From Hydrogenophaga sp. (GTDB lineage Bacteria > Pseudomonadota > Gammaproteobacteria > Burkholderiales > Burkholderiaceae_C): a stretch of 32,071 nt of DNA. The stretch lies in assembly GCF_028698005.1 (NCBI RefSeq), contig NZ_JAQVEJ010000015.1, positions 1 to 32,071 on the forward strand. Direction: 5' to 3'. The position numbers were made by a program, and so were the translations under genes. This document shows, piece by piece, positions 1,810 to 29,761 of the stretch. The notes beneath the pieces are model-generated. The model saw only the letters and a list, made by a program, of their open reading frames with translations. It searched no databases and was not told the origin of the DNA. Position 1 is the first letter of the stretch, and every line of letters begins with the position of its first letter.

Positions 1810-1842
1810 GGCACGGGGAACGGTGCCAAGCCTACCAAGGCT
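1810..1842. promoter_or_regulatory. Two adjacent inverted repeats between divergent flavoenzyme genes
   Basis: The nemA/LLM intergenic region holds GGCAC-N8-GTGCC (1810-1827) followed immediately by AGCCT-ACCA-AGGCT (1829-1842). Both are perfect but short. Their place just upstream of the reductase start suggests an operator, yet no regulator gene adjoins and 5-bp arms arise by chance at this GC content. Confidence 0.25.
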
Positions 1843-1929
1843 GCGCGCATCGGACCAGAGGCCGACGGCCGACCCGGAGCCTGGCGTGAGGGCATCCGCC
1901 CCATGGGCGCACGGGCCGCCCAGGCAGCG

Positions 1930-1935
1930 CACAAT
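1930..1935 (+). promoter_or_regulatory. Candidate -10 element giving a near-leaderless transcript
   Basis: CACAAT ends seven bases before the ATG at 1943, so transcription from it would begin at or within a base or two of the start codon. There is no Shine-Dalgarno sequence before this ATG, which agrees with a leaderless message. No clear -35 is seen. Confidence 0.35.
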
Positions 1936-1942
1936 CGCGCTC

Positions 1943-2956
1943 ATGAACGCCTTGCCCATATCCCTGTCCGATATCCGATTGTCCATGCTGGATCTGGTGG
2001 CCGTGCGCGAAGGCGGCACGGTGGCCGATGCGCTGGCCATCGCCCTGCGTACGGCCCAGCATGCGGAGCGGCTGGACTTCGCCCGCTACTGGCTCGCCGA
2101 GCACCACAACATGCCCGGCATTGCCAGCTCCGCCACGGCGGTGCTGGTGGGCTACATTGCCGGCGGCACGCGGCACATCCGTGTCGGCTCGGGCGGGGTG
2201 ATGCTGCCCAACCACGCGCCGCTGGTGGTGGCCGAGGCCTTCGGCACGCTGGCCGAGCTGTACCCGGGCCGCATCGACCTGGGCCTGGGCCGCGCGCCGG
2301 GTACCGATCCGCTGACCATGCGCGCGCTGCGCCGCGACCGCGTCGAGACCGAGGAGGACTTTCCGCGCGACGTGGCCGAGCTGCAACGCCTGCTGGGCGA
2401 CGCGCAGCCGGGTCAGCGTCTGGTGGCCACGCCCGGCGCGGGCACCCACGTGCCGATCTGGCTGCTGGGCTCCAGCCTGTTTTCGGCCCAACTGGCGGCC
2501 GAGCGCGGCTTGCCCTATGCGTTCGCCTCGCACTTCGCCCCCCGCTATCTGCTGCAGGCGCTGCACCTGTACCGGCAGAATTTCAAACCATCGGCCACGC
2601 TGGCCAAGCCCTACGTCATCGTCGGCGTGCCCCTGATCGCGGCGCCCGACGACGCCGAAGCCGACTACCTGGCCAGCAGCACCTACCAGCGGGTGCTGGG
2701 CATTCTTACCGGGCGCCGGGGGCTGTTGCAGGCGCCCATCGATGGCTTCATGGCCGGACTCGATGCGCGTTCGAAGGCCGCGATCGGCGACTTTCTGGCC
2801 TGTGCCGTGGTGGGCGGGCCGGCCACGGTGCGCGCCGGTCTGCAGCAACTGGCCGATGCCACGCGGGCCGACGAGTTCATGCTGGTGAGCGATGTGTTCG
2901 ACCCGACCCTGCGCCTGCGCTCGCTGGACATTGCCGCGGCCGCCATGCGCGGCTGA
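1943..2956 (+). CDS. LLM-class (luciferase-like) flavin-dependent oxidoreductase
   Basis: 337-residue bacterial-luciferase-like TIM barrel of the MsnO8-like group. Visible marks are [12 protein letters not shown] near the N terminus (about 12-24), [20 protein letters not shown] (about 49-68), the [18 protein letters not shown] strand (about 83-100) and [13 protein letters not shown] (about 111-123). These enzymes use reduced FMN and oxygen, or F420-type cofactors in other lineages, for monooxygenation; the substrate is unknown. ATG at 1943 is chosen because the alignable family start follows directly; an upstream in-frame start at 1823 adds 40 low-complexity residues with no family likeness. 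It is divergent from the NemA-type reductase, so both may answer one signal. Confidence 0.9.
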
Positions 2957-3252: not shown

Positions 3253-6200
3253 ATGGACATGAACCGCCGCCATTTCTTCCGCGTCAGCGGTGCCGGCCTG
3301 GCCGGTTCGAGCCTGGCGCTGATGGGTTTCTCGCCCGCGACCGCGTTGGCCGAAGTGCGCCAGTTCAAGCTGGCCTCGACCACGGTCACGCGCCAGACCT
3401 GTACCTACTGCTCGGTCGGTTGCGGCCTCCTGATGTACTCGCTGGGCACCGGCGGCAAGAACGCCAAGTCCTCGGTGATCCACATCGAGGGCGATCCGGA
3501 CCACCCGGTCAACCGCGGCACGCTGTGCCCCAAGGGTGCGGGCCTGCTCGACTACATCAACAGCCCGAACCGCCTGCTGTACCCCGAGTACCGCGCGCCC
3601 GGCTCGAACGAGTGGCAGCGTCTGTCCTGGGACGACGCGCTCACCCGCATCGCCCGGCTGCTCAAGGAAGACCGCGACGCCAACTTCCAGGCCACCACGG
3701 CCGATGGCCTCACGGTCAACCGCTGGACTTCCACCGGCATGCTCGCCGCCTCCGCATCGAGCAATGAAGCCGGCTACATCACGCACAAAGTGGCCCGCTC
3801 CTGGGGCCTGCTCGCATTCGACAACCAGGCACGTGTCTGACACGGCCCGACGGTGGCAGGTCTTGCCCCGACGTTTGGCCGTGGAGCGATGACGAACCAT
3901 TGGGTCGACATCAAGAATGCGGACGTTGTTTTGATCATGGGCGGCAATGCCGCCGAAGCGCACCCCTGCGGGTTCAAGTGGGTGACCGAAGCGAAGGCGC
4001 ACAACAAGGCGCACTTCATGGTGGTCGATCCGCGCTTCAACCGCTCGGCGGCGGTGGCGGATTTCTACGCCCCCCTGCGCTCGGGCTCGGACATCGTCTT
4101 CCTGGGCGGGATCATCAACTACCTGCTGAGCAACGACAAGATCCACCACGAGTACGTGCACAACTACACGGACTTCAGCTTCATCGTGCGCGATGACTAC
4201 GAGTTCGTGGACGGCATCTTCTCGGGTTACAACGAGCAGGCGCGTACCTACGACAAGCGGACCTGGGACTACGAACTGGGCGAGGACGGCTACGTCAGGA
4301 CGGACCCGACGCTGCAGCACCCGCGTTGTGTCTACCAGCTGATGAAGCAGCACTACGCGTCGTACACGCCCGAGAAGGTCGAGAGCGTCTGCGGCACGCC
4401 GAAGGAGAAGTTCCTGCACGTGGCCGAGATGTTCGCGTCCACGGCGGTGCCGGGCCGTGCCGCGACCATCATGTACGCCCTGGGCTGGACCCAGCACTCC
4501 ACCGGTGCGCAGATCCTGCGCTGTGCCGCCATGGTGCAACTGCTGTGCGGCAACATCGGCGTGGCCGGTGGTGGCATGAACGCGTTGCGCGGGCACTCCA
4601 ACATCCAGGGGTTGACCGACCTCGGGCTGTTGTCGGCCAGCCTGCCGGGCTACCTGTCGCTGCCGGGCGAGAAGGAGCAGGACTACCAGCAGTACATCGC
4701 CTCGCGCACGCAAAAGCCCTTGCGTGCCAACCAGATGAGCTACTGGCAGAACTATCCCAAGTTCCATGTCAGCCTGATGAAGTCCTGGTTCGGCGCCGCT
4801 GCCACGGCCGAGAACAACTGGGCTTTCGACTACCTGCCCAAGCTGGACAAGCAGTACGACATGCTGCAGATCTTCCAGCTCATGCACGAGGGCAAGGTCA
4901 ACGGCTACATCGCGCAGGGCTTCAACCCGATCGCGGCGCTGTCGGACAGCAACCGGCTGCGCCAGGGGCTGGCCAAACTCAAGTTCCTGGTCGTGATGGA
5001 CCCGCTGGCCACCGAGACGTCGGAGTTCTGGAAGAACCACGGCGAGTACAACGATGTGGACACGGCCTCGATCCAGACCGAGGTGTTCCGCCTGCCCACC
5101 ACCTGCTTCGCCGAGGAAGAGGGCGCGGTGGTCAGCTCCAGCCGCGTGCTGCAGTGGCACTGGAAGGCGGCCGAGCCCCCGGGCGAGGCCAGGACCGACA
5201 TCGCCATCATGGCCGGCCTGCACGCGCACCTGAAGGCGCTGTACGCCAAGGACGGCGGGGCTTTCCCCGACCCGATCCTGAACCTCGACTGGCGCTACGC
5301 CGATCCGGCGCACCCCAGCGCCGAGGAGCTGGCCAAGGAGTACAACGGCAAGGCGCTGGTCGATCTGCTCGACCCGAAAGACCCGACCAAGGTGTTGCGC
5401 CCCGCGGGCCAGCAGGTCTCGGGCTTCGGCGAGTTGCGCGACGACGGTTCCACGGCCTGCGGCTGCTGGATCTACGCCGGCGCCTGGACGCAGGCGGGCA
5501 ACCAGATGGCGCGGCGCGACAACAGCGACCCGACAGGCATCGGCAACACGCTGAACTGGGCCTGGGCCTGGCCGGCCAACCGGCGCGTGCTCTACAACCG
5601 CGCCTCGGCCGACCTGCAGGGCAAGCCCTTCAACCCGCGCCGCAAGCTGGTCGAGTGGAACGGCAAGAGCTGGGGCGGAGCCGATGTGCCCGACTTCGGT
5701 GCCGCGCTGGCACCCGAGACGGGGGCCGGTCCGTTCATCATGAACCCCGAAGGGGTGGCGCGCTTCTTCGCGCGCCGGGCGATGAACGAGGGGCCGTTCC
5801 CCACCCACTACGAGCCGTTCGACACGCCGCTGGGCTACAACCCGATGTACCCGGACAACGCCAAGGCCACGTCCTCGCCGGCCGCGCGCGTGTTCGCCAA
5901 CATCTGGGAGACCTTCGGCAAGGCGGACGAATTCCCGCATGTGGGCACGACCTACCGCCTGACCGAGCACTTCCACTACTGGACCAAGCACGCCCTGGTC
6001 AATGCCATCACCCAGCCCGAGCAATTCGTCGAGATCGGCGAGGCGCTGGCCGAGCAGCTCGGCATCAAGGCGGGTGACCGCGTCCAGGTCAGCTCCAAGC
6101 GCGGCTACATCAAGGCCGTGGCCGTGGTGACCAAGCGCATGAAGGCCATGAAGATCGAGGGACGCGACATCCACCATGTCGGCATTCCGATCCACTGGGG

Positions 6201-6318
6201 CTTCAAGGGCGTGACCAAGCCCGGGTTCCTGGCGAACACGCTGACGCCCTTTGTGGGCGACGGCAACACCAACACACCGGAATTCAAGACCTTCCTCGTG
6301 AAGGTCGAGAAAATCTAG
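3253..6318 (+). CDS. fdnG: Formate dehydrogenase-N alpha subunit, selenoprotein (TGA at 3838-3840 = Sec196)
   Basis: 1021-residue molybdopterin catalytic subunit that oxidises formate to CO2 in the periplasm. A Tat signal peptide opens it (RRHFFR at 5-10, cleavage likely after TALA near 33). A [4Fe-4S] site follows at Cys50, Cys53, Cys57 and Cys92. The frame runs through TGA at 3838-3840 and continues as [17 protein letters not shown], the context that surrounds selenocysteine in E. coli FdnG, at the same residue number (196) and followed by the same histidine. A SECIS hairpin begins on the next base. Later marks include [20 protein letters not shown] and the C-terminal molybdopterin-binding domain to 6318. 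E. coli FdnG is 1015 residues. ATG at 3253 has GGAGGG six bases upstream; an in-frame ATG at 3177 would add 25 residues before the Tat signal and is less likely. Expression needs selA, selB, selC and selD, none of which is in this window. Confidence 0.96.
3838..3883 (+). promoter_or_regulatory. Sec UGA codon and bacterial SECIS hairpin
   Basis: Directly after the TGA, CACGGCC (3841-3847) pairs perfectly with GGCCGTG (3877-3883). Above it, CGG (3851-3853) pairs with CCG (3868-3870), T3854 is bulged, GGCA (3855-3858) pairs with TGCC (3864-3867), and the loop is GGTCT (3859-3863). A bulged U below an apical helix capped by a GGUCU loop is the arrangement recognised by SelB in E. coli fdhF and fdnG. 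The bases also encode the conserved protein, so they serve two purposes. Drawn by eye, not computed. Confidence 0.88.
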
Positions 6319-6328
6319 GAGGCGCCGG

Positions 6329-7258
6329 ATGTCACTGCAATCCCTTGATATCAAGCGCTTGTCGGCCACCACCACGCCGGCACCCCAGGCGCGCACCCCG
6401 CAGTCGGGCGAGGTGGCCAAGCTGATCGATGTCTCCAAATGCATCGGCTGCAAGGCCTGCCAGACCGCCTGCATGGAATGGAACGACCTGCGCCAGGAAC
6501 CGGGCCACAACGTGGGGGTCTACGACAACCCGGCCGACCTGACCGAGAACGCGTGGACGGTGATGAAGTTCACCGAATACGAGAACGAGGCCAGCGGCAA
6601 CCTGGAGTGGCTGATCCGCAAGGACGGCTGCATGCACTGCGAGGACCCGGGCTGCCTGAAGGCCTGCCCCTCGCCGGGCGCGATCGTGCAATACACCAAC
6701 GGCATCGTGGATTTCCACGAGGAGCATTGCATCGGTTGCGGCTACTGCATCACCGGCTGCCCGTTCAACGTGCCGCGCATCTCCAAGCAGGACCACAAGG
6801 CCTACAAGTGCACCCTGTGCTCGGACCGCGTCGCGGTCGGGCGCGAGCCGGCCTGCGTGACCACCTGCCCCACGGGTGCCATCGTGTTCGGCACCAAGCA
6901 GGCGATGAAGGACCACGCCGAGACGCGCATCGCCGACCTGAAGGAGCGCGGTTTCGAGAAGGCGGGCCTGTACGACCCGGCCGGCGTGGGTGGCACCCAC
7001 GTGATGTACGTGCTGCACCACGCCGACCAGCCCTCGCTGTACGCGGACCTGCCCGACGAGCCGAAGATCAGCTCGATGGTCAGTCTGTGGAAAGGCATGG
7101 CCAAGCCGCTGGCGATGGCCGCGCTGGGTGTGGCTGCGCTGGGCAGCCTGTTCCATTTCATCACCAAGGGGCCGAACGAGGTGGCCAAGGAACTGGAGGA
7201 TGAAATGGACCGCAAGGACCGCGAGGCCGATGCCGCCGAGAAGGAGAGCCAGCCATGA
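6329..7258 (+). CDS. fdxH: Formate dehydrogenase-N beta subunit, four [4Fe-4S] clusters
   Basis: 309-residue electron-transfer subunit. Sixteen cysteines in four ferredoxin-like sets are visible: Cys38/41/44/48, Cys101/104/109/113, Cys134/137/140/144 and Cys161/164/176/180. They would wire formate-derived electrons from the alpha subunit to the cytochrome. A single membrane helix lies at about 260-279, followed by a charged tail of about 28 residues, as in FdnH/FdoH, so the bulk of the protein sits in the periplasm and rides with the Tat-exported alpha subunit. A strong AGGAGG sits between the fdnG stop and this ATG, with only 10 bases separating the genes. Its TGA overlaps the next ATG. Confidence 0.96.
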
Positions 7259-7881
7259 TACGCAATCCACGCGACCTGCAGCGCTACACGGCCGGCGAGC
7301 GCGCCAACCACTGGATCGTGGGCATCTGCTTCATCCTGCTGGCGCTCTCGGGCCTGGCGTTCTTCCATCCGGCCTTCTTCCCGCTCACGATGCTGTTCGG
7401 CGGCGGCACCTGGACGCGCATCCTGCATCCCTACATCGGGGTGGTGATGGCCGTGTTCTTCCTGCTCATGGTGGTCCGCTTCGCCGCGCTCAACCTGATC
7501 GAGTCGCGCGACATCGAGTGGCTCAGGAACGTGAACAAGATGGTCGATGGCAACGACCACGACATGCCCGAGCAGGGCAAGTACAACGGTGGCCAGAAGG
7601 TCCTGTTCTGGGGGCTGGTGCTGGGCATGGTGCTGCTGCTGGCGTCCGGCGTGCTCATGTGGCGCGCCTGGCTGAACCTGCCGGTCGATGTGGTGCGCAT
7701 CGCCTCGGTGGTGCATGCGGCAGCGGCCGTGTGGATGATCGGCCTGATCATCCTGCACGTCTACGCGGCCATCTGGACCCGTGGCACCATCCGCGCCATG
7801 ATGTACGGTACCGTGACCAGGGCCTGGGCCAAACAGCACCACCGCGGCTGGTACCGCAAGATGACCGGGGACAACAACTGA
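7255..7881 (+). CDS. fdnI: Formate dehydrogenase-N gamma subunit, cytochrome b556
   Basis: 208-residue integral membrane dihaem cytochrome b with four helices (about 20-37, 57-76, 115-137 and 150-172). Histidines that match the haem ligands of E. coli FdnI are at 19 (ERANHW), 58 (ILHPYIG), 154 (SVVHAA) and 168 (IILHVY). It passes electrons to menaquinone or ubiquinone near the cytoplasmic face and so contributes to proton-motive force. The ATG overlaps the beta-subunit stop in an ATGA, showing translational coupling. Basic residues near the C terminus ([10 protein letters not shown]) fit a cytoplasmic tail. Confidence 0.95.
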
Positions 7882-7883
7882 CC

Positions 7884-8822
7884 GTGCCACAACGCATTCT
7901 CCAACCGGGCGAAATCGAGGCCCTTGACCGCACCAGCCTGCCCCGGGTCCGGCTGCCGCAGCCGTCCAGCCTGTTTGCCGACCGCGCCGCGCGGCTGGTG
8001 CAACTGGCCGATGGCCATCCCATCGGCGACTATCTGCGCTTTCTGGCCGGTCTGGCCAGGGCGCAGCACAAGGCCGCCGCCACGGTCCTGACGGCGCCGA
8101 TCGATGCCGACACCGTCCGGCGTGCCAACGCGCATGGCATGCCCCTGGTGCAGGCGGCCAGCCAGATCGACCCGGCGTGGCAGGGCGTGCTCGATGGCCT
8201 GCTGGATGCGGTGCAGGCCGATGCCGGGCTGCCGGCGGCACTGCTGCCGGTGCTGGAACGCCTGCGCACGCTGACACCCGAGGCGCGTGACCAACTGGCC
8301 CGGCGCGTGCTGGCGGGCCTGCTGAACGAGCCCGATGACCTGGCGGCGGCGCCCATCGTCGTGGCTGCGCTGCAGGTGGTGTTCGCCGACCAGGCCAGCC
8401 ACCTCAACGAGGCCGAAGTCCCGTATGCCGAGCCGGCCACGGTCTGCCCGGTGTGCGGCACACCCCCGGTGGTGAGCGTGCTGCGCATCGGCGGACGCGA
8501 GGCCGGTCTGCGCTACCTGCACTGCGGCACCTGCTGCACCGAGTGGCACATGGTGCGCGTCAAATGCAGCCATTGCGAGTCGACCCAGAACGTGCGCTAC
8601 CAGAGCGTGCAGGATGGCGGCGACGTGGTCGTGGCCGAGACCTGCGGCACCTGCCACACCTATCGCAAGCTGGTCAACCAGGAAAAAGACCCGCTGGCCG
8701 AGCCGCTGGCCGACGATCTGGCGTCGCTGATGCTGGACCTGCTGATGGGCGAAACGGACTTCGCGCGGGCCACCATGAACCCCTGGTTGCCGATGTCCGA
8801 GGTGGCGGCGCCATCACCCTGA
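7884..8822 (+). CDS. fdhE: Formate dehydrogenase accessory protein FdhE
   Basis: 312-residue cytoplasmic protein needed for maturation of respiratory formate dehydrogenases. It has the GDYLRFLAGLARAQ segment (about 49-62) and a cysteine-rich core: CPVCGTPPVVSV, LHCGTCCTEWHMVRVKC, CSHCE and ETCGTCHTYRK. These CxxC pairs bind iron in E. coli FdhE. The C-terminal EKDPLAEPLADDLASLMLD is also typical. The start is GTG at 7884, two bases after the fdnI stop; no earlier or nearby ATG fits, the alignment with FdhE begins here, and coupling with fdnI would compensate for the weak ribosome site. E. coli FdhE is 309 residues. It closes the operon; no sel gene follows. Confidence 0.94.
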   Translation: MPQRILQPGEIEALDRTSLPRVRLPQPSSLFADRAARLVQLADGHPIGDYLRFLAGLARAQHKAAATVLTAPIDADTVRRANAHGMPLVQAASQIDPAWQGVLDGLLDAVQADAGLPAALLPVLERLRTLTPEARDQLARRVLAGLLNEPDDLAAAPIVVAALQVVFADQASHLNEAEVPYAEPATVCPVCGTPPVVSVLRIGGREAGLRYLHCGTCCTEWHMVRVKCSHCESTQNVRYQSVQDGGDVVVAETCGTCHTYRKLVNQEKDPLAEPLADDLASLMLDLLMGETDFARATMNPWLPMSEVAAPSP

Positions 8823-8945
8823 CCGGTGTAGGGGCATCGGTTCGGGGCTTGATGCAGGACAAGGAGCAGCGGCGGGCCAGCCGGTAAGCTTGCCCTATTT
8901 GCCCGGTATTCCTTCTTTTTGGCCGGGTGCTGTGGACCCTGCCGA

Positions 8946-10205
8946 ATGAATGACCAAGCCCTGCGCGTCGCCGACGCATTTCCCCCTCATGACGCCGACC
9001 TGAACACCGACCCAGCCCTGCGGCTGGTGCAACTGGCCCGCGAAACAGGTCTGCGCCCCTGGGTACTGCACGGCAAGACGCTGATACCCGTGGTGCAGGG
9101 TGGCATGGGGGTGGGGGTGTCGGCCGGCGGGCTGGCCGGTACCGTGGCACGCCACGGGGGCATGGGCACGGTGTCGTCGATCGACCTGCGCCGGTTGCAC
9201 CCTGACCTGATGGCCGAAACCGCCCCCCTGGAAAAGACGCAGAATGCGCGCGAGCGCATCGATCGGGCCAATTTCATCGCGCTCGACCGGGAAATCCGCC
9301 GCGCGCGCGAAATCGCCCAGGGACATGGCCTGATCGCCGTCAACGTGATGAAGGCCCTGTCGGCCTACGAGGACTACGTGCGCCAGGCGCTGGCCAGCGG
9401 GGTGGACGCCATCGTGGTCGGCGCCGGCCTGCCGCTGGACCTGCCGGACCTGGCCTGCGACCACCCCGATGTGGCGCTGATTCCCATCCTCTCGGATGCG
9501 CGCGGCGTGCAGCTGATCATCCGCAAGTGGGAGAAGAAGGGCCGCCTGCCCGATGCCATCGTCATCGAGCACCCGCGTCTGGCCGGCGGCCACCTGGGCG
9601 CGGCCCGCATCGACGACCTGGGCGATCACCGCTTCGACTTCGAGGTGGTCATCCCGCAGGTGCTGGCTTTCCTGCGCGAGGCCGGCATCGAGCGCGAGAT
9701 CCCGCTGATCGCCGCCGGTGGCATCAGTTCGCACGAGGACATCGAGCGGCTGCAGAACCTGGGTGCCAGCGCGGTACAGATGGGTACCGCGTTCGCCGTG
9801 ACGCAGGAGTGCGATGCCGACGCGGCATTCAAGCAGGTGCTGGCCGAGGCCCGGCCCGAGGACATCGTGGAGTTCGTGAGCGTAGCAGGTTTGCCGGCGA
9901 GGGCGGTGCGGACCCCCTGGTTGGACAAGTATTTGAGGGTGGAATCCAAGCTCAAGGCGGTGGCGCACGTCAAAAGCCGTTGTAATATGGCCTTCGACTG
10001 CCTCGCCCGTTGCGGATTGCGCGACGGCAAGGCCGAGATGGGCCAGTTCTGCATTGACCAGCAATTGGGGCATGCACTGGCCGGGGATCAGCGCAAAGGC
10101 CTGTTTTTCCGGGGGGCGGGACGTCTGCCCTTTGGCAGCGACATTCGCCCGGTGCGCGATCTCCTGCAATGGCTGCTGGCTGGACACCATCCGGCCGCGG
10201 CCTGA
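8946..10205 (+). CDS. Nitronate monooxygenase-family flavoprotein with Cys-rich C-terminal region
   Basis: 419-residue FMN TIM-barrel protein of the 2-nitropropane dioxygenase/nitronate monooxygenase family. Visible marks are IPVVQGGMGVGVS (about 40-52), ARHGGMGTVSS (about 62-72), the AGGHLG loop with the likely catalytic histidine, LIAAGGISSHEDIERL and GASAVQMGTAFAVT (FMN phosphate). Beyond the barrel lies a C-terminal stretch with four cysteines at 346, 352, 356 and 369, which short nitronate monooxygenases lack. Family members oxidise alkyl nitronates, while relatives such as FabK reduce enoyl-ACP, so the exact reaction is uncertain. ATG at 8946 is preferred because the extra nine residues of the longer frame are not family-like. 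It lies between the fdn operon and nrdJ, apparently as a separate unit. Confidence 0.8.
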   Translation: MNDQALRVADAFPPHDADLNTDPALRLVQLARETGLRPWVLHGKTLIPVVQGGMGVGVSAGGLAGTVARHGGMGTVSSIDLRRLHPDLMAETAPLEKTQNARERIDRANFIALDREIRRAREIAQGHGLIAVNVMKALSAYEDYVRQALASGVDAIVVGAGLPLDLPDLACDHPDVALIPILSDARGVQLIIRKWEKKGRLPDAIVIEHPRLAGGHLGAARIDDLGDHRFDFEVVIPQVLAFLREAGIEREIPLIAAGGISSHEDIERLQNLGASAVQMGTAFAVTQECDADAAFKQVLAEARPEDIVEFVSVAGLPARAVRTPWLDKYLRVESKLKAVAHVKSRCNMAFDCLARCGLRDGKAEMGQFCIDQQLGHALAGDQRKGLFFRGAGRLPFGSDIRPVRDLLQWLLAGHHPAAA

Positions 10206-10252
10206 TCCACCAGAGGCCGGCCACCAGCGCCGGCAACAGCTGAACGTACACC

Positions 10253-12691
10253 ATGAAACGAGATACCGAACTGCGGGCTCAGGACCTGACCCGCACCCAG
10301 CCCATCAGCCAGGACGTCCTGGCCGAGAAGTACCTGAAAGGGGACGAAACCGGCATCGAGGACCTGTTCCGGCGCGTGGCGCGGGCGCTGGCCTCGGTCG
10401 AGAAGGATGCGCTGCGTGCCGAATGGGAACAGAAGTTCCTGGACAACCTGCATGCCGGCGCCATCGGCGCCGGCCGCATCATGAGCGCGGCGGGCACCGA
10501 CATCCAGGCCACGCTGATCAACTGTTTCGTGCAGCCGGTGGGCGACTGCATCCAGGGCTTTGATGACGAGGGCTATCCCGGCATCTACGAGGCCCTGCGC
10601 GAGGCGGCCGAGACCATGCGCCGCGGTGGCGGCGTGGGCTATGACTTCTCGCGCATCCGGCCCAAGGGCGCCGAGGTGCGCGGCACGCACTCCATGGCCT
10701 CGGGCCCGTGCAGCTACATCAACGTGTTCGACCAGAGCTGCTCCACGGTCGAGAGCGCAGGCGCGCGGCGCGGCGCGCAGATGGGCGTGCTGCGCATCGA
10801 CCACCCGGACGTGCTGGAGTTCATCACCGCCAAGCGCACGCCCGGCCGCTGGAACAACTTCAATGTGTCGGTCGGCGTGCCCGACGCCTTCATGGAGGCG
10901 CTGGCGGCCGACCAGCCCTGGGAACTGGTGCACCGCGCCAAGCCCGGAGCCAGGCTGCTCGAGCAGGGCGCCTACCAGCGCGCCGACGGCCAGTGGGTCT
11001 ACCGCACCGTGGCGGCGCGCGAGCTGTGGGACACGATCATGACCTCGGCCTACGATTTCGCCGAGCCGGGTATCCTGTTCCTGGACCACATCAACCAGGA
11101 CAACAACCTGCGCTACTGCGAGGGCATCGCCGCGACCAACCCCTGTGGCGAACAGCCGCTGCCGTCCTACGGTTGCTGCGACCTGGGGCCGATCATCCTG
11201 ACGCGCTTCGTGCGCCATCCGTTCGGCTTTGGCGGCCTGCCCAGTTTCGACTTCGACGCCTTCGAGCAGGTGGTGGCCACCCAGGTGCGGGCACTGGACA
11301 ACGTGCTGGACCTGACCTTCTGGCCGCTGGAGCAGCAGCGCGCCGAGGCCCACGCCAAGCGCCGCATCGGCGTGGGTTTCACCGGCATGGGCAACACCCT
11401 GGCCATGCTGTGCCTGCGCTACGACCGCGAGGAAGGCCGCACGATGGCGGCGCAGATTGCCGAGCGCATGCGCAACGCCGCCTACCGCGCGTCGGTGGAA
11501 CTGGCCAAGGAAAAGGGCCCCTTCCCCAAATTCGAGGCCAACGGCTATCTGCAGGCCGGCACCTTCGCCAGTCGCCTGCCCAAGGACATCCAGCAGGCGA
11601 TCCGCAAGCACGGCATCCGCAACAGCCACCTGCTGTCGATCGCACCCACCGGCACCGTGAGCCTGGCCTTTGCCGACAACGCCTCCAACGGCATCGAGCC
11701 GCCGTTCTCCTGGACCTACCGGCGCAAGAAGCGCGAGGCCGATGGCTCGACCAGCGAGTACGCGGTGGAAGACCATGCCTGGCGCCTGTACCGCGAACTC
11801 GGCGGCGATGCCGACCAGCTGCCCGAGTATTTCGTCAATGCGCTGGCGATGACGGCGGACGAGCACATCGCCATGATGGAGGCGGTGCAGCCCTTCGTGG
11901 ACACGGCCATCTCCAAGACGGTCAATGTGCCGGCCGAGTACCCCTACGAGGATTTCAAGGGCCTGTACCGGCAGGCCTGGCGTGCCCGGCTCAAGGGCCT
12001 GGCCACCTACCGGCCCAACACCATCCTGGGGTCGGTGCTCGACACCGGGGCGCCCGAGGCCAAGGCCAAGGAGGAGGTCGCCGCCCCGCCGGTGGACCCG
12101 ATGCGCACGGTGATCGAAAGCCGGCCCAAGGGCGCGCTGTCGGCCGTGGCCGACAAGATCGAGTACTGGACGCAGGAAGGCCACAAGACGCTGTACATCA
12201 TCGTCTCGTTCCTGCCGGTGCCCGCCGCCGACGGCGTGGGCACGGTGGAGCGCGCGATCGAGTTCTTCATGCCGGTGGGCCAGAGCGGCGAGTCGCAGCA
12301 GTGGATCACCTCGACCATGCGCATGCTGTCGCTGGCCGCGCGCGGCGGCTTCCTGGGCCGCGCGCTGCGCGACATGCGCAAGGTGGCCTGGGACCGCGGC
12401 CCGGTGCGTCTGGGCACCTACGAAAAGGCCGACGGCACGCACGTGCCGATGTGGCACGACTCCGAGGTGGCGGCGATTGCCTTCGCGATCCAGAACATCC
12501 TGGCACGCCGTGCCGAGCATGTGGCGAACCACAAGGCGTCTTCGATGACGCCCGCGGCGCCCGAGCTGCCCGGCATGCCGACCGGCGTCATGGCCGGCAA
12601 GAAATGCCCGGAATGCGGCGCGCATGCCATGATCCGCAAGGACGGGTGCGATTACTGCACTTCCTGCGGGCACCTGGGGTCTTGCGGCTGA
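10253..12691 (+). CDS. nrdJ: Adenosylcobalamin-dependent (class II) ribonucleotide reductase
   Basis: 812-residue enzyme that makes deoxyribonucleotides using vitamin B12, with or without oxygen. The redox cysteine is in LINCFVQPVGD (Cys91). The active-site signature NPCGEQPLPSYGCCDLG has Asn296, Cys298 (thiyl radical) and Glu300. GGGVGYDFSRIRPKG (about 125-139) and SIAPTGTVSLAFADN (about 460-480) are further family blocks. The C terminus ends in a zinc-ribbon-like tail (Cys785, 788, 799, 802, 805, 811) whose last cysteines probably re-reduce the active site. It is a single-gene unit with a strong terminator. The 47-base gap upstream is too short for a cobalamin riboswitch, and no NrdR box is evident there. 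Confidence 0.95.
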   Translation: MKRDTELRAQDLTRTQPISQDVLAEKYLKGDETGIEDLFRRVARALASVEKDALRAEWEQKFLDNLHAGAIGAGRIMSAAGTDIQATLINCFVQPVGDCIQGFDDEGYPGIYEALREAAETMRRGGGVGYDFSRIRPKGAEVRGTHSMASGPCSYINVFDQSCSTVESAGARRGAQMGVLRIDHPDVLEFITAKRTPGRWNNFNVSVGVPDAFMEALAADQPWELVHRAKPGARLLEQGAYQRADGQWVYRTVAARELWDTIMTSAYDFAEPGILFLDHINQDNNLRYCEGIAATNPCGEQPLPSYGCCDLGPIILTRFVRHPFGFGGLPSFDFDAFEQVVATQVRALDNVLDLTFWPLEQQRAEAHAKRRIGVGFTGMGNTLAMLCLRYDREEGRTMAAQIAERMRNAAYRASVELAKEKGPFPKFEANGYLQAGTFASRLPKDIQQAIRKHGIRNSHLLSIAPTGTVSLAFADNASNGIEPPFSWTYRRKKREADGSTSEYAVEDHAWRLYRELGGDADQLPEYFVNALAMTADEHIAMMEAVQPFVDTAISKTVNVPAEYPYEDFKGLYRQAWRARLKGLATYRPNTILGSVLDTGAPEAKAKEEVAAPPVDPMRTVIESRPKGALSAVADKIEYWTQEGHKTLYIIVSFLPVPAADGVGTVERAIEFFMPVGQSGESQQWITSTMRMLSLAARGGFLGRALRDMRKVAWDRGPVRLGTYEKADGTHVPMWHDSEVAAIAFAIQNILARRAEHVANHKASSMTPAAPELPGMPTGVMAGKKCPECGAHAMIRKDGCDYCTSCGHLGSCG

Positions 12692-28522: not shown

Positions 28523-28651
28523 CACAGACAACTCCGCTTGTGCCGCGTGTCGGCTGAGAGAGATCGCATGGCCCGCCAGAGGCCGCACCAACGCCCAAGT
28601 CCTGTCTGCCTGAATCGGTGGGTGCCGTGCGCCTGATTGCCGGGAGTTGCG
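28523..28651 (+). promoter_or_regulatory. Structured 5' leader of the sulfur operon; 5' end can pair with the ribosome-binding site
   Basis: Starting from the TAGAAT at 28511, the leader is about 130 bases. CAACTCC (28529-28535) is fully complementary to GGAGTTG (28643-28649), which contains the Shine-Dalgarno sequence of yeeE (GGGAG at 28642-28646). Inside lie GCCG-N5-CGGC directly followed by TGAGA, GGCC-N7-GGCC, and GCACC that can meet a later GGTGC. This closed multi-branch shape resembles translational riboswitches. The CTGAGA recalls the thiamine pyrophosphate riboswitch, but the other invariant blocks of that class are missing. Pairings were found by eye. Confidence 0.4.
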
Positions 28652-29761
28652 ATGCCTTTTGAACCATCCATCACGACATTGCTGTGGGCAGGATTTGTGC
28701 TCGGCGCTGCCTTTGGCGCGTCGGCGCGGGTCGGACGCTTCTGTCTGCAGCGGGGCTTGCGCGAGGCAGCGGCGGGCGGGCCGGCACCGGCGCTGCGCGC
28801 CTTTGCGCTGGCGCTGGCCGTGGCGCTGCTGATCTCGCAGGTGCTGGCATGGTCGGGCCTGGTGGCGCTCGATGGCGCCCCGGTGGCGCGGGGGCGTTTT
28901 TCCTGGGTGGCCGTGCTGGTCGGCGGTCTGCTGTTCGGCGCCGGCATGGCCCTGGCGCGCGCCTGCGGCGCCCGTTCGCTGGTGCTGCTGGCAGGAGGCA
29001 ACCTGCGGTCGCTGGTGACGCTGCTGTGCCTGGGGCTGGCGGCGCAGGCCACGCTGACGGGTGTGCTGGTGCCCGTGCGGCAGTGGCTGCAAGGTTGGGG
29101 CGGGGTTGCGCTGGCGCAGGCCACACTGCCCCAGCAGTTGCGTGCCTGGGGGCTGCCCGACCCGGTGGCCGCGCCGGGGGCCGCCGCCCTGCTGGCATTG
29201 CCCTTGCTGATCTATGCGCTGCGCCCGGCCAGGGCGGGCCGGGGTGATTCGAACGCGGTGCCCCTGCTGTGCGCGGCCATCATCGGTGTGCTGGTGGCCA
29301 CCGCCTGGGTGGTCACGGCGCACCTGGGCGATCCGTTCGAGCCGGTGCCGCTCACCTCGCTCAGCTACGTCGGCCCGGTGGCCGAGGGGTTGCTGTTCCT
29401 GCAACTGGCCGTCGGACGCGACGCCAGCCTGGGTCCGGCCATCGTGGCGGGTACGCTGGCGGGCGCCGGCGTGGCGGCCCTGCTCACACACACGGCCCGC
29501 TGGGAAGGCTTCGAGAGTCCCGCGCAACTGGCCACCTCGGCCATTGGTGGCCTGCTCATGGGATTCGGCGGTGTGCTGGCCGTGGGCTGCACCATCGGTC
29601 AAGGGCTGGCGGGCCTGTCCGCGCTGGCATGGGCCAGCGTGCCCGCCTGTGCCGGCATCGTGGCCGGGGCGTGGGCCGTGCTGTGCCTGCAAGCCCATTC
29701 CTTTCCATCCGGTTCCCGTTCACCCAGGAGAGCACCCTCATGCAACGACGCCATTTCCTGA
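28652..29761 (+). CDS. YeeE/YedE-family (TsuA-like) sulfur/thiosulfate transporter
   Basis: 369-residue membrane protein of two similar halves and about ten helices. The three cysteines that mark thiosulfate-carrying YeeE proteins are present in context: GRFCLQRG (Cys31), ARACGARS (Cys105) and AVGCTIGQGLAG (Cys313), close to Cys22, Cys91 and Cys293 of characterised YeeE. These pass thiosulfate or a related sulfur species through the inner membrane. ATG at 28652 has GGGAG five bases upstream; a TTG at 28637 is less likely. The last 22 bases overlap the next gene. A related group (YedE/FdhT) is linked with selenium, but the soxYZ neighbours favour sulfur here. Confidence 0.87.
   Translation: MPFEPSITTLLWAGFVLGAAFGASARVGRFCLQRGLREAAAGGPAPALRAFALALAVALLISQVLAWSGLVALDGAPVARGRFSWVAVLVGGLLFGAGMALARACGARSLVLLAGGNLRSLVTLLCLGLAAQATLTGVLVPVRQWLQGWGGVALAQATLPQQLRAWGLPDPVAAPGAAALLALPLLIYALRPARAGRGDSNAVPLLCAAIIGVLVATAWVVTAHLGDPFEPVPLTSLSYVGPVAEGLLFLQLAVGRDASLGPAIVAGTLAGAGVAALLTHTARWEGFESPAQLATSAIGGLLMGFGGVLAVGCTIGQGLAGLSALAWASVPACAGIVAGAWAVLCLQAHSFPSGSRSPRRAPSCNDAIS

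Follow-up and report, generated by a model that had tools for sequence, protein, structure and literature searches.

A predicted selenocysteine formate dehydrogenase operon in Hydrogenophaga, probably served by sel genes of another ancestry

The formate dehydrogenase locus

The stretch of Hydrogenophaga DNA analysed here (‘the window’; 32,071 nucleotides) carries the genes for a membrane-bound formate dehydrogenase (FDH), fdnG, fdnH and fdnI, followed by fdhE (Table 1). The genes for the beta and gamma subunits lie directly downstream of that for the alpha subunit, and both score above the cut-offs of their family models. FdhE assists formate dehydrogenase maturation. The reading frame of fdnG contains a single internal stop, a TGA at codon 196, ahead of its terminal TAG at codon 1022. 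The initial annotation took this TGA to encode selenocysteine (Sec), which we take to be the metal ligand at residue 196 of FdnGHI, and took the histidine that follows to match E. coli FdnG. Both claims hold. The protein read through the TGA matches the FDH-N alpha model, TIGR01553, across both sides of the codon (residues 3–1020; 1449.9 bits, cut-off 814.2), and its residues 1–1020 align with residues 1–1014 of E. coli FdnG (PDB 1kqf_A; 1544 bits), in which a non-standard ‘X’ occupies position 196, immediately ahead of HGPTVA.

Table 1. Features of the fdn locus and its flanks (window positions; nt, nucleotide identity)
Feature	Position	Strand	Basis or remarks
Left flank: luciferase-like monooxygenase (MsnO8 family), genus-native	1823..2956	+	85–86% nt to genus mates G208, G280, G341; 80% to G114
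fdnG/fdoG, FDH-N alpha subunit, type I, 1021 aa with predicted Sec196	3253..6318	+	TIGR01553; 1kqf_A alignment
UGA predicted to be decoded as selenocysteine 196	3838..3840	+	E. coli FdnG alignment; TGA in 232/236 loci
Bacterial SECIS (RF01989 match)	3835..3893	+	Hairpin 3841–3883; bulged U17 = 3854; loop GGUCU = 3859–3863
fdnH/fdoH, FDH beta (Fe-S) subunit	6329..7258	+	TIGR01582, 469.3 bits (cut-off 334.7)
fdnI/fdoI, FDH gamma (cytochrome b) subunit	7255..7881	+	TIGR01583, 182.4 bits (cut-off 115.85)
fdhE, FDH accessory protein, start codon tentative	7878..8822	+	TIGR01562, 289.2 bits (cut-off 187.65); PF04216, PF24859, PF24860
Right flank: FabK-like oxidoreductase (8919–10205) and B12-dependent ribonucleotide reductase, NrdJ (10253–12691)	8919..12691	+	Profile matches

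Under the standard code the frame divides into open reading frames of 243 and 821 amino acids, as it would if the TGA were a true stop or a nonsense mutation and fdnG were broken. We consider this extremely improbable. The 1022 codons contain one stop only, which coincides with the Sec position of E. coli FdnG; a SECIS element scoring above its cut-off lies right at the TGA; of 236 homologous loci, among which some share a genome and 30 were selected by SECIS, 232 keep the TGA; and the host genome has a complete sel set. A truly broken fdnG of the family, that of genome G253, has six stops in its matched stretch. Given the lone stop at the Sec position, the SECIS and the conserved TGA, we reject the pseudogene reading. 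With an in-frame UGA and a SECIS immediately 3′ to it, fdnG is, as judged from its sequence, a standard bacterial selenoprotein gene, and the selenocysteine reading is correct and of an ordinary, very common kind. During translation of the fdnG mRNA, SelB carrying Sec-tRNA(Sec) would bind the hairpin right after the UGA, and selenocysteine would be delivered as residue 196 of FdnG.

The SECIS element

The initial annotation described a hairpin with a 7-bp lower stem, a bulged U and a GGUCU loop, and proposed that positions 3838–3890 be searched with a covariance model. The Rfam SECIS_3 model (RF01989) matches 3835–3893 of the forward strand over its full length, at 85.3 bits (E 3.6e-19; gathering score 63), and no other SECIS_3 match was reported in the host genome. 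The predicted fold of 3838–3890 reproduces the hairpin: a lower stem of seven pairs (positions 4–10 with 40–46, or 3841–3883), the bulged U17, an apical stem and the GGUCU loop. Its energy is −25.5 kcal/mol (z −2.50), and 2 of 200 shuffled sequences are equally stable.

Covariation was assessed in 55 distinct homologous elements, the broken G253 copy being left out. Standard pairs fill 91.0% of pair cells, versus 84.5% in shuffles, and 47 cells are changed on both sides, versus 15.6; none of 500 shuffles reaches either value, although these counts are not independent events because the sequences are related and protein-coding. The signal is destroyed by sliding the pairing partners. Coarser measures are unremarkable: five pairs changed on both sides (reached by 47 of 500 shuffles) and nine further pair types (52 of 500). 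Covariation is clearest at the pair that closes the apical stem, which is A-U in 30 elements and C-G in 25. The lower stem is not universally of 7 bp, pair 5–45 being unpaired in 34 of the 55 elements and pair 9–41 in 14. The bulged U17 and the loop residues G23 and U24, all present in the window element, show no change in any of 56 distinct TGA-bearing elements; in the available text of PMC8659212 these three are named as fixed SECIS positions, with U17 and G23 as the SelB-binding ones. The 59-base element is identical, letter for letter, in 27 loci including the window's own.

Selenocysteine machinery of the host genome

The host genome, G000, is a draft of 281 contigs and 3.17 Mb, 99.16% complete. 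selA, selB (479.7 bits) and selC (tRNA-Sec, anticodon TCA) lie one after another on contig C39, and are the only above-cut-off matches in the genome. selD is in two pieces, on C236 and C250, with a contig break between; the two contigs overlap by exactly 127 bases, and the active site of SelD, HGGGCGCK, has Cys rather than Sec. The initial annotation reasoned that the host must have SelA, SelB, SelC and SelD; genes for all four are present, selB and selC included, and the selenocysteine reading is not refuted. In the window, ARAGORN finds no tRNA, and there is no match to selA, selB or selC. The four components would thus be supplied from elsewhere in the genome, outside the fdn locus.

Downstream of selC, at 7904–12104 of C39, are a nitroreductase-like gene and ModC-, ModB-, ModA- and ModE-like genes; the Mod-like genes would serve molybdenum supply for the same FDH enzyme. 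On the other side of the sel genes is coaBC.

Co-occurrence of Sec and sel genes in the family

Our family sample comprised 399 genomes. SECIS_3 occurs in 93 of these and selB, above cut-off, in 105; among the selB matches listed, which cover 101 of the 105, 87 genomes have both, 6 SECIS only, 14 selB only and 292 neither. FdnG is matched in 98 genomes. The initial annotation had pointed to relatives with a sense codon at this site as a possible objection; 91 of the 98 keep exactly one in-frame TGA (three of them with the gene as two pieces). The other FdnG genomes are G300, with two pieces that lack the Sec region, G345, with a partial gene, G253, with six stops, and four whose gene is full-length and stop-free (G126, G170, G181 and G384). 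In these four, codon 196 is TGC or TGT and the GUCU loop has disappeared; selA is found in none of them, nor, among the matches listed, is selB above cut-off. We conclude that Sec and sel genes go together. Four genus mates of G384 carry the Sec form, with FdnG 80–81% identical to the window's, versus 58–59% for the Cys form. Sec-to-Cys changes occur mainly in FdhA and SelD according to the available text of a 2026 review (PMC13188914).

SECIS without selB was considered as a class and set aside. G071, G255, G320 and G378 have selA and selB-like sequence in pieces, and appear as ‘SECIS only’ because of an HMM-fragment effect; the remaining two are a fragmented assembly (G321; 840 contigs) and the broken gene of G253. 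The latter (C12:33000-39500) has a six-stop fdnG and yet an intact SECIS of 80.3 bits; G253 lacks selA and, among the matches listed, any selB above cut-off, and the locus is perhaps a relic of Sec use. The 14 genomes with selB and no SECIS_3 above cut-off, among the matches listed (e.g. G304, G369, G161 and G037), may encode other selenoproteins, or an FDH that escaped detection.

Separation of the fdn operon from the sel genes

Stretches containing fdn, with sel where found, were taken from 96 of the 98 FdnG genomes, leaving out the sel regions of G253 and G345; sel genes are present in those of 91. fdnG and selA share one stretch in 88 genomes, no more than 3.6 kb apart in 84 and 5.7, 6.4, 7.6 and 12.7 kb apart in the other four, in agreement with the remark in the initial annotation that sel genes often adjoin fdhE in relatives. 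They are on separate stretches in three genomes. In two of these, G160 and G326, about 2.6 and 3.3 kb of contig remain beyond fdnG; in the third, G000, 25,753 bases of contig continue past fdnG without selA, selB or selC, and the sel genes are on a different contig, C39. Their absence from the window, also part of the initial annotation, is a real departure from the usual linkage. A different arrangement is seen in G359, where selA is within 3.3 kb of fdnG on its contig C11 and the only above-cut-off selB, among the matches listed, is on C1; this may be a further way in which sel genes are split, or may stem from the assembly.

The right flank of the operon (8919–12691) has one colinear match, of 82% nt, in each of the genus mates G280 and G341, and the order DUF454, OYE, luciferase-like gene, [fdn], FabK-like gene, NrdJ is common to these two and G000. 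Because its flanks are colinear with theirs, the fdn operon is embedded in DNA of the genus. Where G000 has fdn, G280 and G341 have in common some 9 kb carrying UbiD, flavoprotein and peptidase U32 genes; the flanks are widely separated in G114 and G208. The genus mate G341 does possess fdnGHI–fdhE, between a metallo-beta-lactamase-fold gene and selA. On C39 of G000, this same left neighbour is followed after 34–165 bases (depending on the start of selA) by selA, with no fdn between. Foreign composition of the fdn tract was not found, 23% of 52 background slices being equally atypical.

Two further features of the window may be mentioned. A 97% identical copy of positions 1–187 lies next to a second fba gene where C220 ends, and the sequence is also repeated in relatives; this repeat is perhaps the reason why the window's contig breaks where it does. 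At 28637–29761, on the forward strand, is a gene for a YeeE/YedE-type membrane protein (PF04143). It was rejected as a selenium gene: it scores 35.5 against the YedE/FdhT model (cut-off 350) and 84.1 against that of the thiosulfate transporter TsuA (cut-off 400), both below cut-off, and is nearer the TsuA model than the selenium-linked one.

Evidence for two ancestries

The FdnG of G000 is 90% identical to those of G283, G213, G004 and G136, all of other genera, and only 61–63% identical to that of its genus mate G341. With G341, G000 shares 83% identity in SelA and 74% in SelB; its SelB is 53% identical to that of G283. FdnG at least 77% identical to that of G000 (‘type I’) occurs in 39 genomes, and sel genes were recovered in 38 of these, the exception being the fragmented draft G321. 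In the other 37, SelB is 42–53% and SelA 52–62% identical to those of G000 (SelA in 36 of 37). Genomes with FdnG at 66–69% have SelA at 68–77% and SelB at 52–65% (36 of 36), and those below 66% have SelA at 52–83% and SelB at 46–74% (17 of 21 with sel), G141 and G354 forming a branch of their own. SelB identity by itself does not separate the groups cleanly; G177 and G215, of the 66–69% group, are slightly nearer the type I sel reference. Among the 38 genomes with type I FdnG and sel genes recovered, only G000 has type II sel genes, and among the genomes examined it alone joins a type I fdn to a type II sel and lacks linkage.

Trees were built for 40 genomes; they are quick trees without bootstrap, and unrooted, so that they give no direction. 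G000 falls inside a type I clade of 14 in the FdnG tree (support 98), and is sister to G341 in the tree of SelA + SelB (support 100). By the AU test, with groups chosen after the trees were seen, FdnG rejects G000 with G341 (p 5.4e-7) and G000 with nine type II FdnGs (p 1e-64), and SelA + SelB reject G000 with 14 type I genomes (p 1.3e-59). We judge, with a probability of roughly 0.9, that the following hold jointly: the Sec codon and SECIS are standard, fdnGHI–fdhE and selA–selB–selC occupy separate loci, the two sets of genes are of different ancestries, and the operon would depend on type II sel genes.

The mismatch has counterparts at a broader scale. A crude typing against two references (FdnG/Sel: I/I 39, I/II 35, II/II 15 and II/I 2, of 91) was set aside; it is misleading because it lumps the 66–69% FdnG group with type I. 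FdnG was instead split into groups by identity, and group changes were counted on both trees. The four groups require three changes on the FdnG tree versus seven on the sel tree, and the histories of fdn and sel therefore diverge repeatedly within the family. In one genus, G140 and G224 are sisters in SelA + SelB (support 100) and have FdnGs of different groups, each linked to sel, and it looks as though the operon was exchanged in place at this sel locus. From this pair and the seven changes, fdn types change beside type II sel elsewhere too.

Transfer, reciprocal loss or a misplaced contig

The best reading, likely but not proven, is that the host gained the fdn operon without the accompanying sel genes, and that a resident SelB of another lineage serves it. 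A type I operon would have arrived without sel genes, the resident fdn would have been lost from the type II sel locus now on C39, and the type I SECIS would be recognised by the non-cognate, resident SelB. In this full form, in which a Sec-decoding host replaced its linked FDH-N by the newcomer and decodes it with a SelB only about half identical to the cognate one, we hold the account to be probable. As a yardstick we used one gene, pyk. The identity of fdnG exceeds that of pyk by 5.9 points between G000 and 12 type I genomes, versus 1.2 points in the 66 pairs that these 12 form with one another (range −3.4 to 4.3, sd 2.0), and 11 of the 12 values lie above that range. After regression on pyk, which here extrapolates to lower pyk identity, outside the fitted range, the excess is only 1.8–4.5 points in 11 of the 12 and −0.5 for G190 (residual sd 1.7). 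Together with the new site, the pyk excess favours arrival of the operon without sel genes, and is no proof of it.

Much the same outcome could be reached by reciprocal loss, if the ancestor of the genus had both type I and type II fdn–sel clusters, G000 kept the fdn of the one and the sel of the other, and G341 kept its type II cluster entire. Loss is common: three of the four genus mates (G114, G208 and G280) have no fdnG match, no sel locus and, among the matches listed, no selB above cut-off. The unforeign composition of the fdn tract and the weakness of the pyk excess also count in its favour. Set against it is the site of the operon, at which G280 and G341 have an unrelated block in common; nor was fdn found beside these flanking genes in the nine other-genus genomes searched with the left part of the window. 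We regard reciprocal loss as unlikely, though it is the more serious of the alternatives. The other is that the mosaic is an artefact of contig binning, with the window contig or C39 derived from another organism. Since G000 is a draft, in 281 contigs and with an estimated contamination of 1.71%, a misplaced contig is possible; the assembly is also small, 3.17 Mb versus 4.8–5.3 Mb for the four genus mates. For the window contig this is unlikely by gene order on both sides of fdn, colinear with G280 and G341, and by pyk, fba and purC. The window's pyk is 85–87% identical (nt) to those of the four genus mates, versus 77–84% where pyk aligned alone elsewhere, and fba–purC is 86–90% identical to three of the four; values for G114 are weaker (81% for fba and purC, with fba by itself at up to 87% in certain other genera). 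C39 might come from another species within the genus; neither it nor the window shares ends with the other contigs compared, and C39 is without a physical join. Its SelA and SelB are nevertheless sister to those of G341 (support 100), its left flank is 77–80% identical (nt) to that genome, and its composition is low but in range (correlation 0.914; 20 background stretches have mean 0.935, sd 0.017 and minimum 0.901). selA, selB and fdnG each occur once above cut-off in G000, so that an artefact would require both a contig of foreign origin and, at the same time, the absence of the native sel locus. A binning error accordingly seems to us distinctly improbable, and we continue to prefer acquisition of the operon without its sel genes.

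Significance and comparison with known systems

Among titles and abstract openings in the literature, most subscription papers lying outside the search, we found no Sec-FDH operon with sel genes of another lineage. The mismatch between operon and machinery, likely rather than proven, is a modest addition to the known picture of selenoproteins. Within a single genome it allows a Sec-FDH operon and sel genes to be distinguished by ancestry, with G341, a genus mate in which the two are linked, for comparison, and offers a natural test of how freely SelB reads the SECIS of another lineage. If true, and with fdn types interleaved on the sel tree, it would mean that selenoprotein operons swap Sec-decoding partners repeatedly within one family. 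Such swapping would run against the co-transfer rule proposed for FDH in the available text of a 2006 study (PMC1794560), which suggests that transfer of sel needs clustered sel genes and a co-transferred selenoprotein gene. Transfers of sel genes were reported in 2005, as the accessible part of PMC1273633 indicates, and the portion available of PMC5029168 (2016) describes the same proximity of fdh and sel in most donors and recipients.

In its parts, the system resembles those already known. The FdnG of Hydrogenophaga has Sec predicted at the same position, 196, as E. coli FdnG (1kqf_A), with the same HGPTVA; the protein is divergent in sequence, and no functional difference is seen. Its SECIS matches the full Rfam SECIS_3 model, again with no difference seen. 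The text available of PMC1794560 describes, for Sec-decoding alpha- and betaproteobacteria and Pseudomonadales gammaproteobacteria, a selA–selB–selC cluster with a neighbouring fdhA. Hydrogenophaga likewise has a selA–selB–selC run, on C39, and an FDH alpha subunit whose gene holds the only SECIS_3 match in the genome; unlike the cluster as described there, its FDH operon lies apart from the sel genes and appears to be of another ancestry.
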